Source: Bacteroidota bacterium (GTDB lineage: Bacteria; Bacteroidota; Bacteroidia; Chitinophagales; Saprospiraceae). From it: a stretch of DNA of 64,000 nt. The translations under genes and the position numbers were made by a program. Of the stretch, positions 1 to 8,701 are shown in pieces (position 1 is the stretch's first letter; each line of letters begins with the position of its first letter). The stretch spans positions 62,001 through 126,000 of the forward strand of contig JASBVF010000055.1 in the NCBI GenBank assembly GCA_030147525.1, read 5' to 3'. Under the pieces are notes generated by a model. The model saw nothing but the letters and a program-made list of their open reading frames with translations, was not told the origin of the DNA and made no database searches.

Positions 1-3000
1 AGCAACGCCTGTGTGCCTACAGACGAAGATGGTGACGGCTACGTCGGAAACTTCCCGGAATCACATCCTGATTTCGATCCGGATGACAATGATCCTTGCG
101 TGCCGCAAGTATCAGCGGGCACCTGTGATTTCGATCAGGACGGCATCATCAATGACCAGGATCCTGACGACGATGGCGACGGTGTGAAAGACGTTGATGA
201 CGTTGATCCGTACAACCCGAACAGCGACAGTGACAGCGACGGTATCACCGATATCGTTGAAACCAAAGGTGACGGTACTTACAACGTCGGTATCGATACG
301 GATCCGCTAAATCCTGATACAGACGGCGACGGAATCCTCGACGGTGTTGAAGATAAAAACAAGAACGGTACGGTGAATACAGGTGAAACCAATCCACTGG
401 ACCCTGACACTGACAAAGACGGCATCAACGACGGCGTGGAAGATGCCAACAAAAACGGCGTCCTCGATCCGGGTGAAAGCGATCCGCTGGATGCCTGCGA
501 TCCTAATGCCACCCAGAGTTTCTGTGACTTTGATGGCGATGGCCTGACCAATGACGTTGATCCGGACGATGATAATGACTGCGTCAACGATGGCAACGAT
601 GTTGATCCGTTTGATCCAAACAGCGATTCGGACGACGACGGCTTCACGGATATCGAAGAGTGCCAGAACGGCAGCAATCCGCTCAATCCATGCGATCCTG
701 AACCGGTAGCTGCAATTTGTTCCGGCTCTGTTGATGAAGATGGCGATGGTTACTTTGGCGATGTAAATCCGAGCAATCCAACATGGGATCCGGACGACAA
801 CGACCCATGTGTTCCGGAGCATACCGTAGGTGCCTGTGACTTTGACAACGATGGCATTCCGAACAGCCAGGATCCGGACGACGATGGTGACGGTGTCAAC
901 GATGTGGACGATGACGATCCGTTTGATCCAAACAGCGATTCAGACGGCGACGGCTACTCCGACATTGATGAAACAACCAACGGTAGCAACCCGCTCGATC
1001 CCTGTGATCCGCAACCGATCTTCGGATGTGGTACGATCGACAACGATGGCGACGGATACTTCTCGGATTTGGATTCTAATGATCCTAATTATGATCCGGA
1101 TGATACCAATCCTTGTATCCCTGAGCTTTGCGGCCCTGCCTGCGATATCGACGGCGACGGCGCTGCAAATGCTAATGACTCGGATGACGACGGCGATGGT
1201 GTTGCCGATGTTGACGACATTGATCCATGCGATCCTGAAAGCGATACAGATGGTGATGGAATTTCTGATATCGATGAAACAACGAATGGCAGCGATCCGC
1301 TTGACTTCTGCGATCCGAACCCGACACCTGACTGTGGCGGCACAGTAGATGCGGATGGCGACGGCTACTATTCCGATTCCGATCCTACGCATCCAACGTA
1401 TGATCCGGACGATGCTGACCCATGCGTACCAGATGTATGCAGCCCGGCTTGTGACCTTGACCTGGATGGCATTGCCAATAGCCAGGATGACGACGACGAC
1501 AACGACGGCGTACTGGATGCGGATGATATCGATCCTTGCGATCCTGAAAGTGACTCTGACGGTGATGGCATCTCCGATATGACGGAGACGCTCAACGGCA
1601 CTGATCCGCTTGATTTCTGCGATCCGGTCAATACTTCGCCTTCCTGTGATTTTGACGGTGACGGCCTTACAAATGACGTTGACGACGATGATGATGGAGA
1701 TTGTGTAGCGGATTTGGACGATGTCGATCCGTTTGATCCAAATAGCGACTCTGACAACGATGGAATTACGGATGCTGACGAATGTGCGAATCAAACCGAT
1801 CCGCTCGATTTCTGTGATCCAAATAGTGACGCTGACCAGTGTGATTGCGACAATGACGGAGTCCTCAATGTTGATGACGACGACGACGACAACGACGGCG
1901 TGGCAGATGCTGACGATGAAGACCCATGCAACCCTGACAGCGATAGCGACAATGATACAATTTCAGATATTGATGAAACAACCAATGGCAGCGATCCGCT
2001 CGATCCTTGTGATCCGAACCCGGATGTGGCAGCCTGCGGCAACGGTGATGCAGACGGCGATGGTTTCAGTGCAAACCTTGACCCGAGCAATCCACTGTAT
2101 GATCCGGACGATAACAATCCGTGTGTGCCAAATGTAGCTTTTGGCGGATGCGATTTCGACGGCGACGGCCTTGTGAACAGCGTTGATCCAGATGATGACG
2201 ACGACTGCGTGGAAGATGCTCTCGATGTCAATCCTTACAATGCTCAGAGCGATAGCGATCAGGATGGTATCTCTGATTTGACAGAATGCCAGAACGGTAG
2301 CAATCCGCTCGACAAGTGCGATCCGAACCCGACATTTGGTATTTGCGATTGCGATGGCGACGGTATTCCCAACAATCAGGATACTGACGACGACAACGAT
2401 GGCGTACCGGATGCATTTGATGCCGATGATTGTGATCCACACACGGATACGGACCTTGATGGCATTTCGGATATTGATGAAACTACGGCAGGTTCTGATC
2501 CGCAAAACCCATGTGACCCTGACCCGAACAGTCTTGCCTGTGTCGGTGAAGATGCTGACGGTGACGGATACATTGCCAATGCTTCACAGGACGATCCGCT
2601 CTACGATCCGGATGACAACGATGCCTGTGTGCCTTCGCACACTACCGGAGCATGTGATTTCGACGGCGACGGTTTGCCAAACAGCATCGATGACGATGAC
2701 GACGGAGACGGTGTCAATGATGACGATGATGTTGACAAATTCAACCCGAACAGCGATAGTGACGGTGACGGTATTACCGACATCATAGAAACCGGTGGCG
2801 ACGGAAGCTATGATCCGGGTGTCGACAGTGATCCGCTGAACGTCGATACGGATGGCGATGGAATCCTGGATGGCATTGAAGACGCTAACCAGAACGGCCA
2901 GGTTGATCCGGGCGAAACAAGCCCGATCGACACGGACTCCGACAACGATAGCCTGGCTGACGGTTTTGAAGATACCAATAAAAACGGCCAGGTAGATCCG

Positions 3001-3951
3001 GGCGAATCTGATCCGACCAACCCGGATGACGACAACGATGGTATCCTCACCATTGATGAAGATACGGACGGCGACGGTGATGTGACCAATGACGATACGG
3101 ACCTGGATGGAATACCAGATTATCTGGATCCTGACCCATTCGTGTTCGCTCACATGAAAGCCTTCCTGCAAGGACCTTTCGTACAGAGCGCAGGCATGAT
3201 GCATGATAGCCTGCGGTCAAAAGGATTGCTGCCTTTGACGGAACCTTACGCCTCGTTGCAGGTGAATGGCCAGAAACCATTCGTCCACATGGGCGGCGGA
3301 GGAGAAACGGTGAATCCAGATGTGTTCAACGTAACCGGAAATAATGCCATCGTCGACTGGGTGTTTATTGAACTGAGAAGTAAAAACGACCCATCGGTGA
3401 GGTTGCTGACAAGGTCGGCACTCCTGCAACGGGATGGAGACATTGTTGATCTCGACGGGGTAAGCCCGGTTGTGTTCAGGGCCAAACTTGACAGCTATCA
3501 TGTTGCGGTCAGACACAGAAATCACCTTGGAGTGATGAGTGCAGAACCACTGGCACTGACGAGAGATAAACAGGCGCCGGCATCAGTCGACTTTACGACC
3601 GGTACGGGAGTGGCTTACGGTACGCATGCCCAGAAGAAAACTGGCAACTACAACGTGATTTGGGGCGGTAACGCTGACGGTAACAAGTATATCATCTTCC
3701 AGGGTAGTGGAGTAGGTCTTGCAGACCGGGACTTCATCTTCTTCGAAGTATTCCTTGATCCGGCAAACGTGAACGCCAGCTTCAACCATATTGCGCAAGG
3801 CTACAAGCAGGGAGACACGAACATGGATGGCTTTGTGAAATACCAGGGTTTGGGCAACGACGTAGATCAATTAATCTTCTTCAACGTCCTTCAGCACCCT
3901 GCAAATACAAACTTTGCTATCAACTTCTTCATCACCGGACAGCTTCCGTAG
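1..3951 (+). CDS. Giant acidic DxDxDG (thrombospondin type 3-like) repeat surface protein, 5' truncated
   Basis: The reading frame is open from base 1, so the true start lies upstream; the first possible start codon in the window (GTG at 13) falls inside a repeat. About 1050 residues consist of Asp-rich repeats such as DFDGDGLTNDVDPDDD, matching thrombospondin type-3/adhesin calcium loops (DxDxDG), with regularly spaced Cys that may form disulfides. Two Cys-free blocks with DTDGDGILDGxED and NKNGxxxPGE words lie near bases 260-490 and 2785-3010 and bracket the Cys-rich array. The last 270 residues are non-repetitive and include a dockerin-like GDTNMDGFV loop near base 3815. Such proteins are secreted and folded by Ca2+; a structural or adhesive surface role is inferred. 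I saw no obvious T9SS type A tail, so export through the lost N-terminus or an unrecognised C-terminal signal is possible. The extreme composition generates long meaningless antisense frames. Confidence 0.85.
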   Translation, partial: SNACVPTDEDGDGYVGNFPESHPDFDPDDNDPCVPQVSAGTCDFDQDGIINDQDPDDDGDGVKDVDDVDPYNPNSDSDSDGITDIVETKGDGTYNVGIDTDPLNPDTDGDGILDGVEDKNKNGTVNTGETNPLDPDTDKDGINDGVEDANKNGVLDPGESDPLDACDPNATQSFCDFDGDGLTNDVDPDDDNDCVNDGNDVDPFDPNSDSDDDGFTDIEECQNGSNPLNPCDPEPVAAICSGSVDEDGDGYFGDVNPSNPTWDPDDNDPCVPEHTVGACDFDNDGIPNSQDPDDDGDGVNDVDDDDPFDPNSDSDGDGYSDIDETTNGSNPLDPCDPQPIFGCGTIDNDGDGYFSDLDSNDPNYDPDDTNPCIPELCGPACDIDGDGAANANDSDDDGDGVADVDDIDPCDPESDTDGDGISDIDETTNGSDPLDFCDPNPTPDCGGTVDADGDGYYSDSDPTHPTYDPDDADPCVPDVCSPACDLDLDGIANSQDDDDDNDGVLDADDIDPCDPESDSDGDGISDMTETLNGTDPLDFCDPVNTSPSCDFDGDGLTNDVDDDDDGDCVADLDDVDPFDPNSDSDNDGITDADECANQTDPLDFCDPNSDADQCDCDNDGVLNVDDDDDDNDGVADADDEDPCNPDSDSDNDTISDIDETTNGSDPLDPCDPNPDVAACGNGDADGDGFSANLDPSNPLYDPDDNNPCVPNVAFGGCDFDGDGLVNSVDPDDDDDCVEDALDVNPYNAQSDSDQDGISDLTECQNGSNPLDKCDPNPTFGICDCDGDGIPNNQDTDDDNDGVPDAFDADDCDPHTDTDLDGISDIDETTAGSDPQNPCDPDPNSLACVGEDADGDGYIANASQDDPLYDPDDNDACVPSHTTGACDFDGDGLPNSIDDDDDGDGVNDDDDVDKFNPNSDSDGDGITDIIETGGDGSYDPGVDSDPLNVDTDGDGILDGIEDANQNGQVDPGETSPIDTDSDNDSLADGFEDTNKNGQVDPGESDPTNPDDDNDGILTIDEDTDGDGDVTNDDTDLDGIPDYLDPDPFVFAHMKAFLQGPFVQSAGMMHDSLRSKGLLPLTEPYASLQVNGQKPFVHMGGGGETVNPDVFNVTGNNAIVDWVFIELRSKNDPSVRLLTRSALLQRDGDIVDLDGVSPVVFRAKLDSYHVAVRHRNHLGVMSAEPLALTRDKQAPASVDFTTGTGVAYGTHAQKKTGNYNVIWGGNADGNKYIIFQGSGVGLADRDFIFFEVFLDPANVNASFNHIAQGYKQGDTNMDGFVKYQGLGNDVDQLIFFNVLQHPANTNFAINFFITGQLP

Positions 3952-4306: not shown

Positions 4307-5149
4307 ATGAACAAATTAAACACTTTCTGCGCGCTTGCGCTTCTGTTCTTTTCTTTTTCACTTAGCGCTCAGGTTAAATTCAAGATTTCATACAACAAGG
4401 AAACCCAGCGTTACACCGTTTCAGTCGTTCCAACGACTTCCTATTTAACACCACAGAATATTACGGGAACCGGACAGGTTACCATCAAGGTGCCTACCAA
4501 CAAGTTCTTTCCGGTTGATATTGAAAGCAGCCTGGCAGGAATGAACTGGGATGCCAACTCCCGTAACGACTCTCCTTCCGAGCAGCCTGACTTTGACTAC
4601 ATTTCTTTCGGTCTGACTGTTTCGCAGGGTCTTGCCTTTCCTGACTATGAGCAAGGTGTTGAACTTCCATTGTTCAGTTTCCAGAACTCATTTGGTTGCA
4701 CCGGTAAGGTTTACCTCATCGATAACGACGCCGATCCGTTCATGCCGCCTAACAGCCAGATGGCTAATATCGGCAACTCGATCACTATCTTGGGTGCTGG
4801 TGGCGATGCATATGGTGGCCTTTCAGGCAACGGAATGTGTGATTGCAGCGATGAAGGCATAACATCAGTAGAGGAAGAACTTGGCCTTACCAGCTTCCGG
4901 ATATTTCCTAACCCGGCCGTTGAGTTCATCAACCTTGAAATTTACTGGGAAGGTGAAAGAACCGATGCAGTCATACAGGTGGTGGATGCAACAGGCAAGC
5001 AGGTTTTGACCAACAGAGCTTCTATCCAGAAAGGTTCTACACAACAGAAAATTGCTGTCGGCAACCTTGCCGCAGGAAAATACTTTGTGTATCTGCTTGA
5101 CAGCAACGGCGCCTGGAAAATGAATCTGAACAGCTTTACCAAATTGTAA
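4307..5149 (+). CDS. Secreted protein with T9SS type A sorting domain
   Basis: 280 residues. An N-terminal signal peptide (MNKLNTFCALALLFFSFSLSAQ) is followed by a beta-rich domain of unknown function at about residues 23-185 and a typical Por secretion system C-terminal domain at about 195-280 (RIFPNPAVEFINLEI, then DATGKQV and LAAGKYFVYL). That tail directs passage across the outer membrane by the type 9 system, with surface attachment or release. The N-terminal domain type occurs in secreted proteins of this family of bacteria, but I assign no function. It follows the giant repeat protein in the same direction with its own promoter, and its mRNA would continue into three strong hairpins. 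Confidence 0.85.
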   Translation: MNKLNTFCALALLFFSFSLSAQVKFKISYNKETQRYTVSVVPTTSYLTPQNITGTGQVTIKVPTNKFFPVDIESSLAGMNWDANSRNDSPSEQPDFDYISFGLTVSQGLAFPDYEQGVELPLFSFQNSFGCTGKVYLIDNDADPFMPPNSQMANIGNSITILGAGGDAYGGLSGNGMCDCSDEGITSVEEELGLTSFRIFPNPAVEFINLEIYWEGERTDAVIQVVDATGKQVLTNRASIQKGSTQQKIAVGNLAAGKYFVYLLDSNGAWKMNLNSFTKL

Positions 5150-5312: not shown

Positions 5313-6146
5313 TTAATCCCATTCCAGCAGGCCTGGTTCAAATTCGTCGTCGTCCAGTTCGATTGTTTCCGGAACTTCGACTTTTTCGACGCCTTTCCCG
5401 GAGGCTGATTTCCGGGTGATGACGGTGGTCCCGACACCCAGTTCGCCGGTGGCCTGATCGACTTCCAGTTTTACACATGTAAAAGCGAAGGTGAGAAATT
5501 CCGGTCCTTCGAATTCAATGGTGTCTTTTGAATCGGCCTTGATTTTAACGCCCAGCTTTGCTTCTGAAATAATTTCCTGGATGGCAGGTATTTCAATGTT
5601 GCCGCCATTGTCTTTTGTCTTTAAAACGTTGATAGCGAACCCATTGGAAATGATGACGTCGGTGACAAGGAGCATATTTTGAGCATTGTCGCCGAGAAAA
5701 ATTTTGGCTGAAGGATGTGTCAGGTTCAGCTTTCGGTTTTGAAGTGCGCTTCCTAGTTCGTTTTTATCAATTCGCCTGCGGCGAACATTTCTGAAGGAAA
5801 GTGAAATTTCACGGGCGTTGTTCATTTTACTGGAAATGGCAGCGGAGGGCAGGTTGAAACCCTGAAAAATACCGCTGAGCAGATCCACGCCAAAGTCCCA
5901 GTCCATAGACCGGGTTTTTTCAAGGTTTACATTGGAGACGATATCCTCTTTCAGTTCTATCGTTAAAACCGAGTCATCGGAAAGCAAGTGCCGCAGATCT
6001 CCTCGTTTATCGGTTTTGCCGTTTTTTTCAGCGATTACGAGTAACGGTTGGACACTGGCCTCCGGGATTCGCATGGGAGTAGCGTCAAAAAGTTTCCTTA
6101 GTACCGAGGTGGTGTCGTTTTGGCAAATTCTGAATTTAAAAGCCAT
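5313..6146 (-). CDS. Hypothetical protein with gasdermin-like pattern
   Basis: 277 residues, no signal peptide or membrane helix, ending in an acidic tail (ELDDDEFEPGLLEWD). The pattern resembles the gasdermin pore-forming domain. An early Cys (residue 8) is followed by RIPEASVQPLLVI-x-KNG (about 25-43), where gasdermins have a 'P-x(5)-PL-x-V-x-K' element. A basic RNVRRRRIDKNEL stretch follows. Then QNRKLNLTHPSAKI and NMLLVTDVIISNGFAI (about 135-180) parallel the 'RKINFDH...LYVVTE' region of eukaryotic gasdermins. Bacterial gasdermins are 250-300 residues, carry an N-terminal Cys that is palmitoylated and a short C-terminal inhibitory tail removed by a neighbouring protease. No protease gene is adjacent here. 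The gene stands alone, divergent from the exopolysaccharide operon. The gasdermin assignment is by eye and not certain. Confidence 0.4.
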   Translation of the reverse strand: MAFKFRICQNDTTSVLRKLFDATPMRIPEASVQPLLVIAEKNGKTDKRGDLRHLLSDDSVLTIELKEDIVSNVNLEKTRSMDWDFGVDLLSGIFQGFNLPSAAISSKMNNAREISLSFRNVRRRRIDKNELGSALQNRKLNLTHPSAKIFLGDNAQNMLLVTDVIISNGFAINVLKTKDNGGNIEIPAIQEIISEAKLGVKIKADSKDTIEFEGPEFLTFAFTCVKLEVDQATGELGVGTTVITRKSASGKGVEKVEVPETIELDDDEFEPGLLEWD

Positions 6147-6463: not shown

Positions 6464-8701
6464 ATGGACTTTGGGTATCTTATCAACATACTACTGAGAC
6501 GAAAATGGCTTTTGTTTTCCGTTGTCCTCCTTTCTGCTATTGCCACCTGGTTCTTCATTGGTAGCCTTCCTGATGTTTACAAGGCGAAGGCGGTTATTTC
6601 AACCGGCATCATCGACTACAAAGGCGTCAGTCTCCAAAAGGACAATCCTTTCATTCAAAAATTTCAGATTGAAAGCAGCTTTAACGGCCTGATTGAAAAA
6701 ATGAGGTCGAGAAGCAGCATTAAACCGCTGACCGACAAACTATTGCTGCATGACCTTCAGGCAGCTGACCTGAAAGAAGAACCTTTCAGGAAGCCTGATG
6801 GCAAGGAACTAGGCATCTCTGAAAGCGAATTGAGCAGTCTTGTCATGAGGCTCAAAGCCAATCTCACCGATTCTGTTTTGAATAAAAAACCGCAGCTTGA
6901 AATCCCAGGCGGCAAGCTGGCAGAGGCTTATGATTATGATTATGAAAAATTGCTCAAAAAGCTGGATATCAAACGGATCGGGGAGACCGATTACCTGAGC
7001 GTAGAGTTTGAATCGGAAAAACCTGAGCTCTCATATTTTGTGATCAATACATTTCTGGATGAATTTTTTGCCCTTCACGAAAACGATCTTTCAGCCAAGG
7101 AAGATCAGGTGCTGAAATTTCAAACCGAGCAACTTCGCAGCCGTAGGCAGGAACTTGACTCGCTCATTGAAGAGATCAACCAGTACAAAAATTCTCACCA
7201 GCTTGTTGATGTGTCAAAACAACGGGAATCAATTGTTGGACACATCAGGGAGCTTGAGTTAAAGCTCGAAGAGCAGCGGCAACGCATCCCCGCTCTCAAA
7301 GGACAAATCAAAATTCTCAACAACGAGATTCTCAAATATAACAAGGAACTTGGGGATTACATGGCCTCGAATATTCACTTCAGTGAAGAATATGAGTCTA
7401 TAGACCGCCGCATCAAAGCACTTCAGGATCAATACGTTGAGAATTTGAGCGCCGGCAAAAGTACCGACGCCATCAATTTAAAAATCGAAGCACTCAGAGC
7501 GGAGCGCTCAAAATATATTGCTAATTCAGTCTCAGCCGTAAGCGGCAAGGCTAAGGAAAACATTGACAAACAGGTGAGAGACTGGATCAAGGAGAGCCTT
7601 GAAAAACAACTTGACCTTGAGTTGGCCGAGGCAGCCTTTGCATCTTACCAGAAGGAAGTGATTAAGCAACAGGCAAAAGCCGATCAATTGTTGCTGAATG
7701 ATAATGAGCTTGCCAGCCTGGAAGCTGAAAAAAGCCGGGTGGAAAAAGAATATCAGCGGGTCAGGTCAGAATATGACGATGCCAAGCTTTATGTTGACGG
7801 ATCTGAAAACCCGCTCACCGTAATCGAGCCGGCGCTGATGCCTGACGAGCCGGAGTCCAAGCACCGGGCAGTTTTCGCTGCGTTTGCTGGTATTGCGAGT
7901 GGCTCGCTGGCGAGTATCGTACTTTTTTTGCTGGCGTTCATCGATTCAAGTTTGCAATCGCCGGCCCAGTTTAAGCGTACCATAAACCTGCCGTTGCTGG
8001 GCTATGTGAATGAGGTGAAAGGGCGCAGTATCAATCTACAACGTCTTTTTTCACAGGCTACAAGTGATGCTGAGCTTGAGATTTTCAAAGAAAACATTCG
8101 GAAACTTCGAACGAGTATCGAAACTTCCGGCGCCAAATGTTTTCTGTTTGTTAGCTCCAAGGAACAGGAAGGCAAATCTTTTCTAACATTGTTACTGGCC
8201 TATGCGCTCAGTTTGAATGGCAAAAGGATTTTGGTTATCGATACTAATTTTAAAAATAATACCCTCTCAGGTTTTAAAAATAAGCAGGCTTTCGAAATTG
8301 AGACAGGCGCCACTTCGGCGGGTTTTTTAGATAAATTCCGGCCAGCGGCCAGCCAACCGGCGGCAAGTGCTTTCAAGCAGGATGACAACCTTAAAAATAT
8401 CACCATTCTCGGCAACAAGGGCGGCAGCCAAAGCCCGTCAGAGATTCTCGCTGGCAAGGATTTCCAGAAAATAATTGACAAATACAAACAGCAATACGAC
8501 TTCGTTTTTCTGGAAGCGGCGGCAATGAATAAATATTCGGATGCCCGGGAATTACTGCCTTATACGGAGAAATTGATTGCCATCTTTTCAAGCCAAAAAC
8601 CGGTTGGCAGCGCTGATAAAGAAACGATTGCATTTTTACAGAACATGAATGGTAAAATGTTCGGTAGTATTTTAAATAAAGTTGACCTGAAGAATATTTG
8701 A
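6464..8701 (+). CDS. Wzc-like polysaccharide chain-length/co-polymerase protein with degenerate tyrosine-kinase domain
   Basis: 745 residues. A transmembrane helix near residues 18-36, a long periplasmic coiled-coil region (about 180-430) and a second helix near 466-492 define a polysaccharide co-polymerase (Wzz/GNVR) of the inner membrane. The cytoplasmic part from about 545 has the BY-kinase/ParA-like fold but is degraded. The Walker A region reads SSKEQEGKSF (GKS kept). Walker A' is VIDTNF rather than the usual DxDxR. The Walker B position reads FLEAAA in place of DTPP. The end lacks the Tyr-rich cluster used for autophosphorylation. It probably sets chain length and couples polymerase to export without full kinase activity. 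It opens a plus-strand locus of polysaccharide genes to 15051. ATG at 6464 was chosen because it directly precedes the first helix. Confidence 0.85.
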   Translation: MDFGYLINILLRRKWLLFSVVLLSAIATWFFIGSLPDVYKAKAVISTGIIDYKGVSLQKDNPFIQKFQIESSFNGLIEKMRSRSSIKPLTDKLLLHDLQAADLKEEPFRKPDGKELGISESELSSLVMRLKANLTDSVLNKKPQLEIPGGKLAEAYDYDYEKLLKKLDIKRIGETDYLSVEFESEKPELSYFVINTFLDEFFALHENDLSAKEDQVLKFQTEQLRSRRQELDSLIEEINQYKNSHQLVDVSKQRESIVGHIRELELKLEEQRQRIPALKGQIKILNNEILKYNKELGDYMASNIHFSEEYESIDRRIKALQDQYVENLSAGKSTDAINLKIEALRAERSKYIANSVSAVSGKAKENIDKQVRDWIKESLEKQLDLELAEAAFASYQKEVIKQQAKADQLLLNDNELASLEAEKSRVEKEYQRVRSEYDDAKLYVDGSENPLTVIEPALMPDEPESKHRAVFAAFAGIASGSLASIVLFLLAFIDSSLQSPAQFKRTINLPLLGYVNEVKGRSINLQRLFSQATSDAELEIFKENIRKLRTSIETSGAKCFLFVSSKEQEGKSFLTLLLAYALSLNGKRILVIDTNFKNNTLSGFKNKQAFEIETGATSAGFLDKFRPAASQPAASAFKQDDNLKNITILGNKGGSQSPSEILAGKDFQKIIDKYKQQYDFVFLEAAAMNKYSDARELLPYTEKLIAIFSSQKPVGSADKETIAFLQNMNGKMFGSILNKVDLKNI

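Follow-up and report, generated by a model that had tools for sequence, protein, structure and literature searches.

Background

Gasdermins are the pore proteins that kill cells in pyroptosis. Bacterial gasdermins (bGSDMs) have been recognised and paired with their activators largely through genomic adjacency. The members described from Runella, Bradyrhizobium and Vitiosangium (PDB 7n50-7n52 and 8sl0) carry a pore domain, an N-terminal cysteine and a short tail, and the protein analysed here is alike in all three respects. In the known systems a caspase-like or another protease adjoins the gasdermin, whereas the present gene stands alone by a polysaccharide locus in five genomes. In the Lysobacter CARD-NLR system, as at loci L056 and L057 of our collection, a death-domain-like module is fused to a trypsin-like protease and paired with a gasdermin.

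Identification of the gasdermin

The gene is found at 5313..6146 on the minus strand of the window, the whole stretch of 64,000 nucleotides that was analysed (G000:C25:62001-126000 of a 7.1 Mb assembly), and encodes a protein of 277 residues as a single-gene unit. A first, sequence-only reading of this DNA had called the product a gasdermin by eye, and the searches bear this out. Indeed, the PADLOC bGSDM model matches residues 7-255 with E=1.3e-59, and a phmmer search against PDB, which that reading had proposed in similar form, matched two solved bacterial gasdermin structures, 8sl0 and 7n51, at E~1e-21; the match spans residues 8-235, which correspond to the homologous pore-forming domain (5442..6125, minus strand). 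The segments cited at that stage are all present in the protein, namely C8, IPEASVQPLLVI at residues 27-38, RKLNLTHPSAK at 138-148 and LLVTDVIISNGFAI at 159-172, and in the phmmer alignment to 8sl0 and 7n51 LLVTDVIISNGFAI pairs with LYVITQVIKSNEFTV. Furthermore, a profile built from 21 relatives reached five bGSDM structures with E-values from 1.7e-40 to 3e-4 and weakly matched gasdermin-E and the Trichoplax GSDM. Pfam returned no match at E<=10, hence the gasdermin would be missed by Pfam alone. AlphaFold, run on alignments of only 1 and 2 gasdermin sequences, gave pLDDT values of 33 and 35, too low to be used. Membership of the bGSDM family is secure without a structure model, since the PADLOC, phmmer and profile matches agree and the noted segments lie inside the alignment. 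One gasdermin copy was found in the genome (G000).

Cys8 (6123..6125, minus strand) aligns with the N-terminal cysteine of bGSDMs, which is known to be palmitoylated (PMC9612521). This residue is invariant in the alignment of the 21-member subfamily and is found at position 8 in all five orthologues, making it a candidate lipidation site.

Locus and neighbouring genes

On one side the gasdermin converges with a gene for a secreted protein bearing a T9SS C-terminal sorting domain (4307..5149, plus strand; Por_Secre_tail E=1.2e-11), and on the other it diverges from a wzc-like chain-length/tyrosine-kinase gene (6464..8701, plus strand), both serving here as locus markers. Beyond the wzc-like gene come genes for a flippase, a methyltransferase and a glycosyltransferase; the wzc-like gene recurs at all five loci described below, and a functional tie to the gasdermin would be putative. 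With these two neighbours, no protease gene adjoins the gasdermin in the window, as first noted from the sequence. A protease motif scan of ORFs of at least 100 aa across the window and 20 kb upstream gave one match only, an ORF encoding a hybrid histidine kinase, and this was rejected, leaving no protease in that range. A plasmid search gave no match.

The region 13-3951 beside the locus codes for a very long secreted protein, rich in Asp-rich repeat motifs that resemble calcium-binding ones, and this gene continues upstream of the window (L007, from 14600). In most genomes of the genus that were examined, long genes of a similar kind occupy the same position.

Conservation of the orphan gasdermin

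The gasdermin gene is present in four of the 14 genomes of the genus (G000, G002, G003 and G005), and a fifth orthologue was found in another genus (G516, locus L050), so that the five span two genera of one Saprospiraceae-like family. They are monophyletic with a support of 97/97 and in each case the gasdermin diverges from the wzc-like gene. At none of the five loci does a protease adjoin; hence the two-gene gasdermin-protease operon is seen neither in the window nor at the four orthologous loci. The wzc gene itself was found in 13/14 genus genomes, and in the nine gasdermin-less wzc loci of the genus that were read no remnants or decayed copies of it were found. Between G003 and G005 the dN/dS of the gasdermin is 0.056, similar to that of wzc (0.074). 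The orphan gasdermin is under purifying selection, and in these five genomes it is a conserved feature of the locus and no stray gene.

At L050, 8655-9755 encodes a DUF3810 membrane protein that carries an HExxH motif; the gene lies on the strand of the gasdermin, 40 bp downstream of it. As a possible partner it was set aside, since it lies beside the G516 gasdermin only and is missing at the other four loci, and its position was treated as chance.

C-terminal tail and linker

About 40 residues follow the homologous pore domain as a predicted autoinhibitory tail, and they end in a conserved stretch, FEPGLLEWD (5316..5342, minus strand). Across the four genus orthologues 12 of the final 14 residues are identical, the joint highest value of 270 windows along the protein, and conservation is less strict when G516 is added (8/14). 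The protein thus has the short tail of bGSDMs and no large inhibitory domain, autoinhibition being a prediction.

The FEPG[LM] core is common to the orphans and to caspase-linked sisters, and the sisters with a DxDxFEPG[ML] tail (L045-L048, L051 and L054) are all caspase-linked. In the same-family operons L046, L047, L048, L051 and L054, which share this tail and a [TS]-[RK] linker, a C14 caspase directly adjoins the gasdermin and in some cases MoxR-vWA-iSTAND genes are present as well. In the orphan of the window the linker starts with Thr244-Arg245-Lys246 (5409..5417, minus strand), where the invariant basic residue marks a candidate cleavage site. Each of the five orphans has T-[RK] at this point, and each of the six caspase-linked sisters with the shared tail has [TS]-[RK], but the residue after the basic one is Gly in these sisters, while the orphans have Lys, Glu or Asp there. 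This difference fits a change of protease partner but proves nothing. Given that the sisters with the shared tail are all caspase-linked, the orphan clade most likely descended from a caspase-linked ancestor and probably lost, or split off, its protease partner.

Gasdermins across the family

Using the PADLOC model, gasdermins were found in 36 of 398 same-family genomes, but in a sample drawn from the whole phylum in only 3 of 395. The neighbours of 33 family gasdermins were read, part of them checked with Pfam and the rest assigned by motifs or by homology to the checked ones. A C14 caspase adjoins 12 of the 33 (in two of these 12 only as a contig-edge fragment), an EAD-trypsin or trypsin adjoins or lies within two genes of five, EAD11-CHAT genes adjoin four (one call coming from a truncated neighbour) and Roco-type GTPases adjoin two, while no protease is visible beside ten, the five orphans included. 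Gasdermins adjoined by EAD11- or EAD1-trypsins occur in this family, the EAD11 type being present beside gasdermins in other genera; L056 and L057 are examples of EAD11-trypsin pairs.

At L065, L067 and L069 the gasdermin adjoins or lies within two genes of an EAD11-CHAT protein, the third type of protease that is found next to gasdermins of the family. At L062 (G473:C49) and L063 (G692:C501) it lies directly beside an LRR-Roc-COR (Roco-type) GTPase, one of which also carries EAD11, and no protease domain was found between them; control of these gasdermins by Roco sensors is possible. The caspase-gasdermin pairs of L051, L046, L052, L053 and L055 are followed by further genes, which at L051 encode a CHAT-iSTAND protein, a MoxR-type AAA protein, a vWA protein and a second caspase, and this suggests a ternary conflict system of the MoxR-vWA type with a gasdermin as its effector. 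Two further matches were rejected as gasdermins: L006 of Halpernia, a short unrelated ORF which we take to be ribosomal-protein-like sequence, and the viral match L173, a phage structural protein.

An unlinked EAD11-trypsin as candidate protease

A stand-alone EAD11-trypsin of 339 aa is encoded on another contig of the window's genome (G000:C54:152559-153569; EAD11 2.9e-15, Trypsin_2 5.7e-23). Near full-length homologues of a gasdermin-linked EAD11-trypsin were found in G000, G003 and G005 (~1e-39 to 1e-49), and a contig-edge copy in G002. A profile of three of these proteins was then searched across the 398 same-family genomes. At E<=1e-150 the EAD11-trypsin occurs in exactly the four gasdermin genomes of the genus and in 0/10 of the others, the best non-orthologous match in the genus being the trypsin domain of a 992-residue ORF of G004 (1e-29). 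This co-occurrence gives p = 0.001 when the 14 genomes are counted as independent, which they are not, with a small multiple-testing cost for the two protease types tested. On the rpoB tree G000 groups with seven gasdermin-less genomes (96/97) and G002, G003 and G005 stand elsewhere, so each gene would have changed on two branches, and these coincide; an AU test against a single clade was borderline (p 0.047). These data suggest that on each of two branches the gasdermin and the EAD11-trypsin came or went together, the co-occurrence representing at most two independent evolutionary events.

The EAD11-trypsin is unlinked from the gasdermin and stands alone at a conserved locus of its own, adjoined by DUF423, bactofilin and sugar-kinase genes. 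The triad H163/D210/S284 is invariant in the alignment, as is D278, which occupies the position of Asp189 in trypsin. An S1 aspartate of the trypsin type predicts cutting after Arg or Lys. No EAD11-trypsin was found in G516, the fifth orphan genome, and about 22 genomes of another genus carry a member of the subfamily but no gasdermin linked to it. At the loci examined in the sister genus g231 it is often fused to TIR or found beside an EAD11-TIR effector (for example L192, L197, L201, L206 and L207), whereas in the genus of the orphan gasdermins no effector lies beside it. The orphan-genome trypsins are not nested within the gasdermin-linked ones. In G524, of another genus, an unlinked gasdermin and unlinked EAD-trypsins are likewise present.

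EAD11 domains are dispersed over every genus genome tested, with 13 in G000. Homotypic contacts between EADs are proposed to bring together effectors and signalling enzymes, some of which are encoded elsewhere in the genome, away from the core systems (PMC8195603). The sequence-only reading had proposed that the gasdermin, if confirmed, would lack its usual partner and that its trigger would be unknown. At the locus this stands, as no protease is adjacent, but genome-wide it is too strong, considering the EAD11-trypsin that co-occurs across the 14 genomes and the solo caspase of gasdermin-system type described below; the partner is lacking at the locus but probably not in the genome.

Proposed mechanism and alternatives

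Activation of the gasdermin in trans by some host protease is, in our judgement, rather probable. The fuller reading that we favour, a split cell-death module in which the gasdermin is fixed beside the exopolysaccharide locus and its activating protease, most likely the EAD11-trypsin, is encoded elsewhere, is tentative, with a chance that we put a little below even; the specific pairing of the gasdermin with the EAD11-trypsin is held just as guardedly. More doubtful still is the wider proposal of a stable gasdermin lineage whose effector and protease sit at two separate conserved loci, are gained and lost together and are wired in trans by an EAD11 network.

From the sequences we infer cleavage and its site, the trigger, lipidation, pore formation and a role in defence. 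The gasdermin would be held inactive by its short C-terminal tail. On infection, a sensor would cluster the protease by way of the EAD11 domain, which is death-domain-like, and the trypsin domain would cut behind a basic residue of the gasdermin linker, for which R245 is the best candidate. The tail would then depart, and the lipidated N-terminal domain could oligomerise into a membrane pore that would kill the infected cell.

Alternatively, the trans partner could be a caspase, which seems unlikely. In G000 this would be a solo C14 caspase-GDSL lipase-like protein encoded outside the window (G000:C25:193123-196092, or L139:624-3593), and in the other orphan genomes other C14 proteases. The protein has the architecture of gasdermin-linked caspases, although no effector gene adjoins its own. 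It matches the aligned gasdermin-linked caspases near full-length (3.2e-210) as well as the gasdermin-system caspase of PADLOC (2.2e-46), and its gene lies on the contig of the gasdermin, about 125 kb away, with no gasdermin adjoining. However, it was not found in G002, G003 and G005, and in the caspase tree it groups with the caspase of a gasdermin-less genome, outside the gasdermin-linked clade, which weakens it as a lineage-wide partner in spite of the tail that the orphans share with their caspase-linked sisters. Many C14 genes are present in G516, and every genus genome examined has two C14 proteins; the latter carry N-terminal repeat regions and apparent signal sequences and are therefore poor cytoplasmic partners.

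It is similarly improbable that the gasdermin works independently of any protease, its pore being freed by redox or lipid state or by binding of an invader product, as in the Trichoplax GSDM and fungal RCD-1. Cleavage-independent eukaryotic gasdermins do exist (PMC12547243), and such a mode would agree with the bare neighbourhood of all five loci. Yet the tail of about 40 residues with its highly conserved end differs from the Trichoplax GSDM, the basic linker residue has been kept, and a candidate protease, the EAD11-trypsin, co-occurs. A gasdermin serving as bait for an invader protease, for instance a phage prohead protease, would need no host protease and would account for a gene that stands alone, is inherited vertically and keeps its tail conserved, but it makes the co-occurring host EAD11-trypsin a coincidence, and we consider it very unlikely. 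Finally, the gene might be a relic of a caspase-gasdermin operon that has been lost, or a neutral passenger left from it, as the shared tail and the patchy presence in the genus could suggest. This reading is the least credible and is disfavoured, the gene being intact in 5/5 genomes with a wzc-like dN/dS, a C-terminus among its most conserved parts and no decayed copies at the nine gasdermin-less wzc loci that were read.

Comparison with known systems

In the open-access literature, the coverage of which was without the primary bGSDM papers so that an earlier mention is possible, no account was found of a conserved unlinked bacterial gasdermin-protease pair. Such a conserved unlinked gasdermin reveals what adjacency-based surveys miss.

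The orphan clade differs from its caspase-linked relatives of the same family in having no caspase beside it and in the linker residue that replaces their Gly, and with one tail occurring in caspase-linked and unlinked sisters, a switch of protease partner can be tested directly. The Trichoplax GSDM and fungal RCD-1 need no dedicated protease for their activation, which is what one would expect here if the gasdermin truly lacks one, but the Trichoplax GSDM has no C-terminal extension whereas the gasdermin of the window keeps a conserved tail and is thus not of that type. In the EAD- and CARD-trypsin systems protease and gasdermin are paired, whereas in G000 the genes for the gasdermin and its candidate protease lie on different contigs, each alone at a conserved locus. 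The gasdermin and the EAD11-trypsin at their two loci offer a testable pair for bacterial pyroptosis as a distributed network, as in animals, and if the proposal is true this two-locus wiring would correspond in bacteria to the situation in animals, where caspase and gasdermin genes are unlinked.
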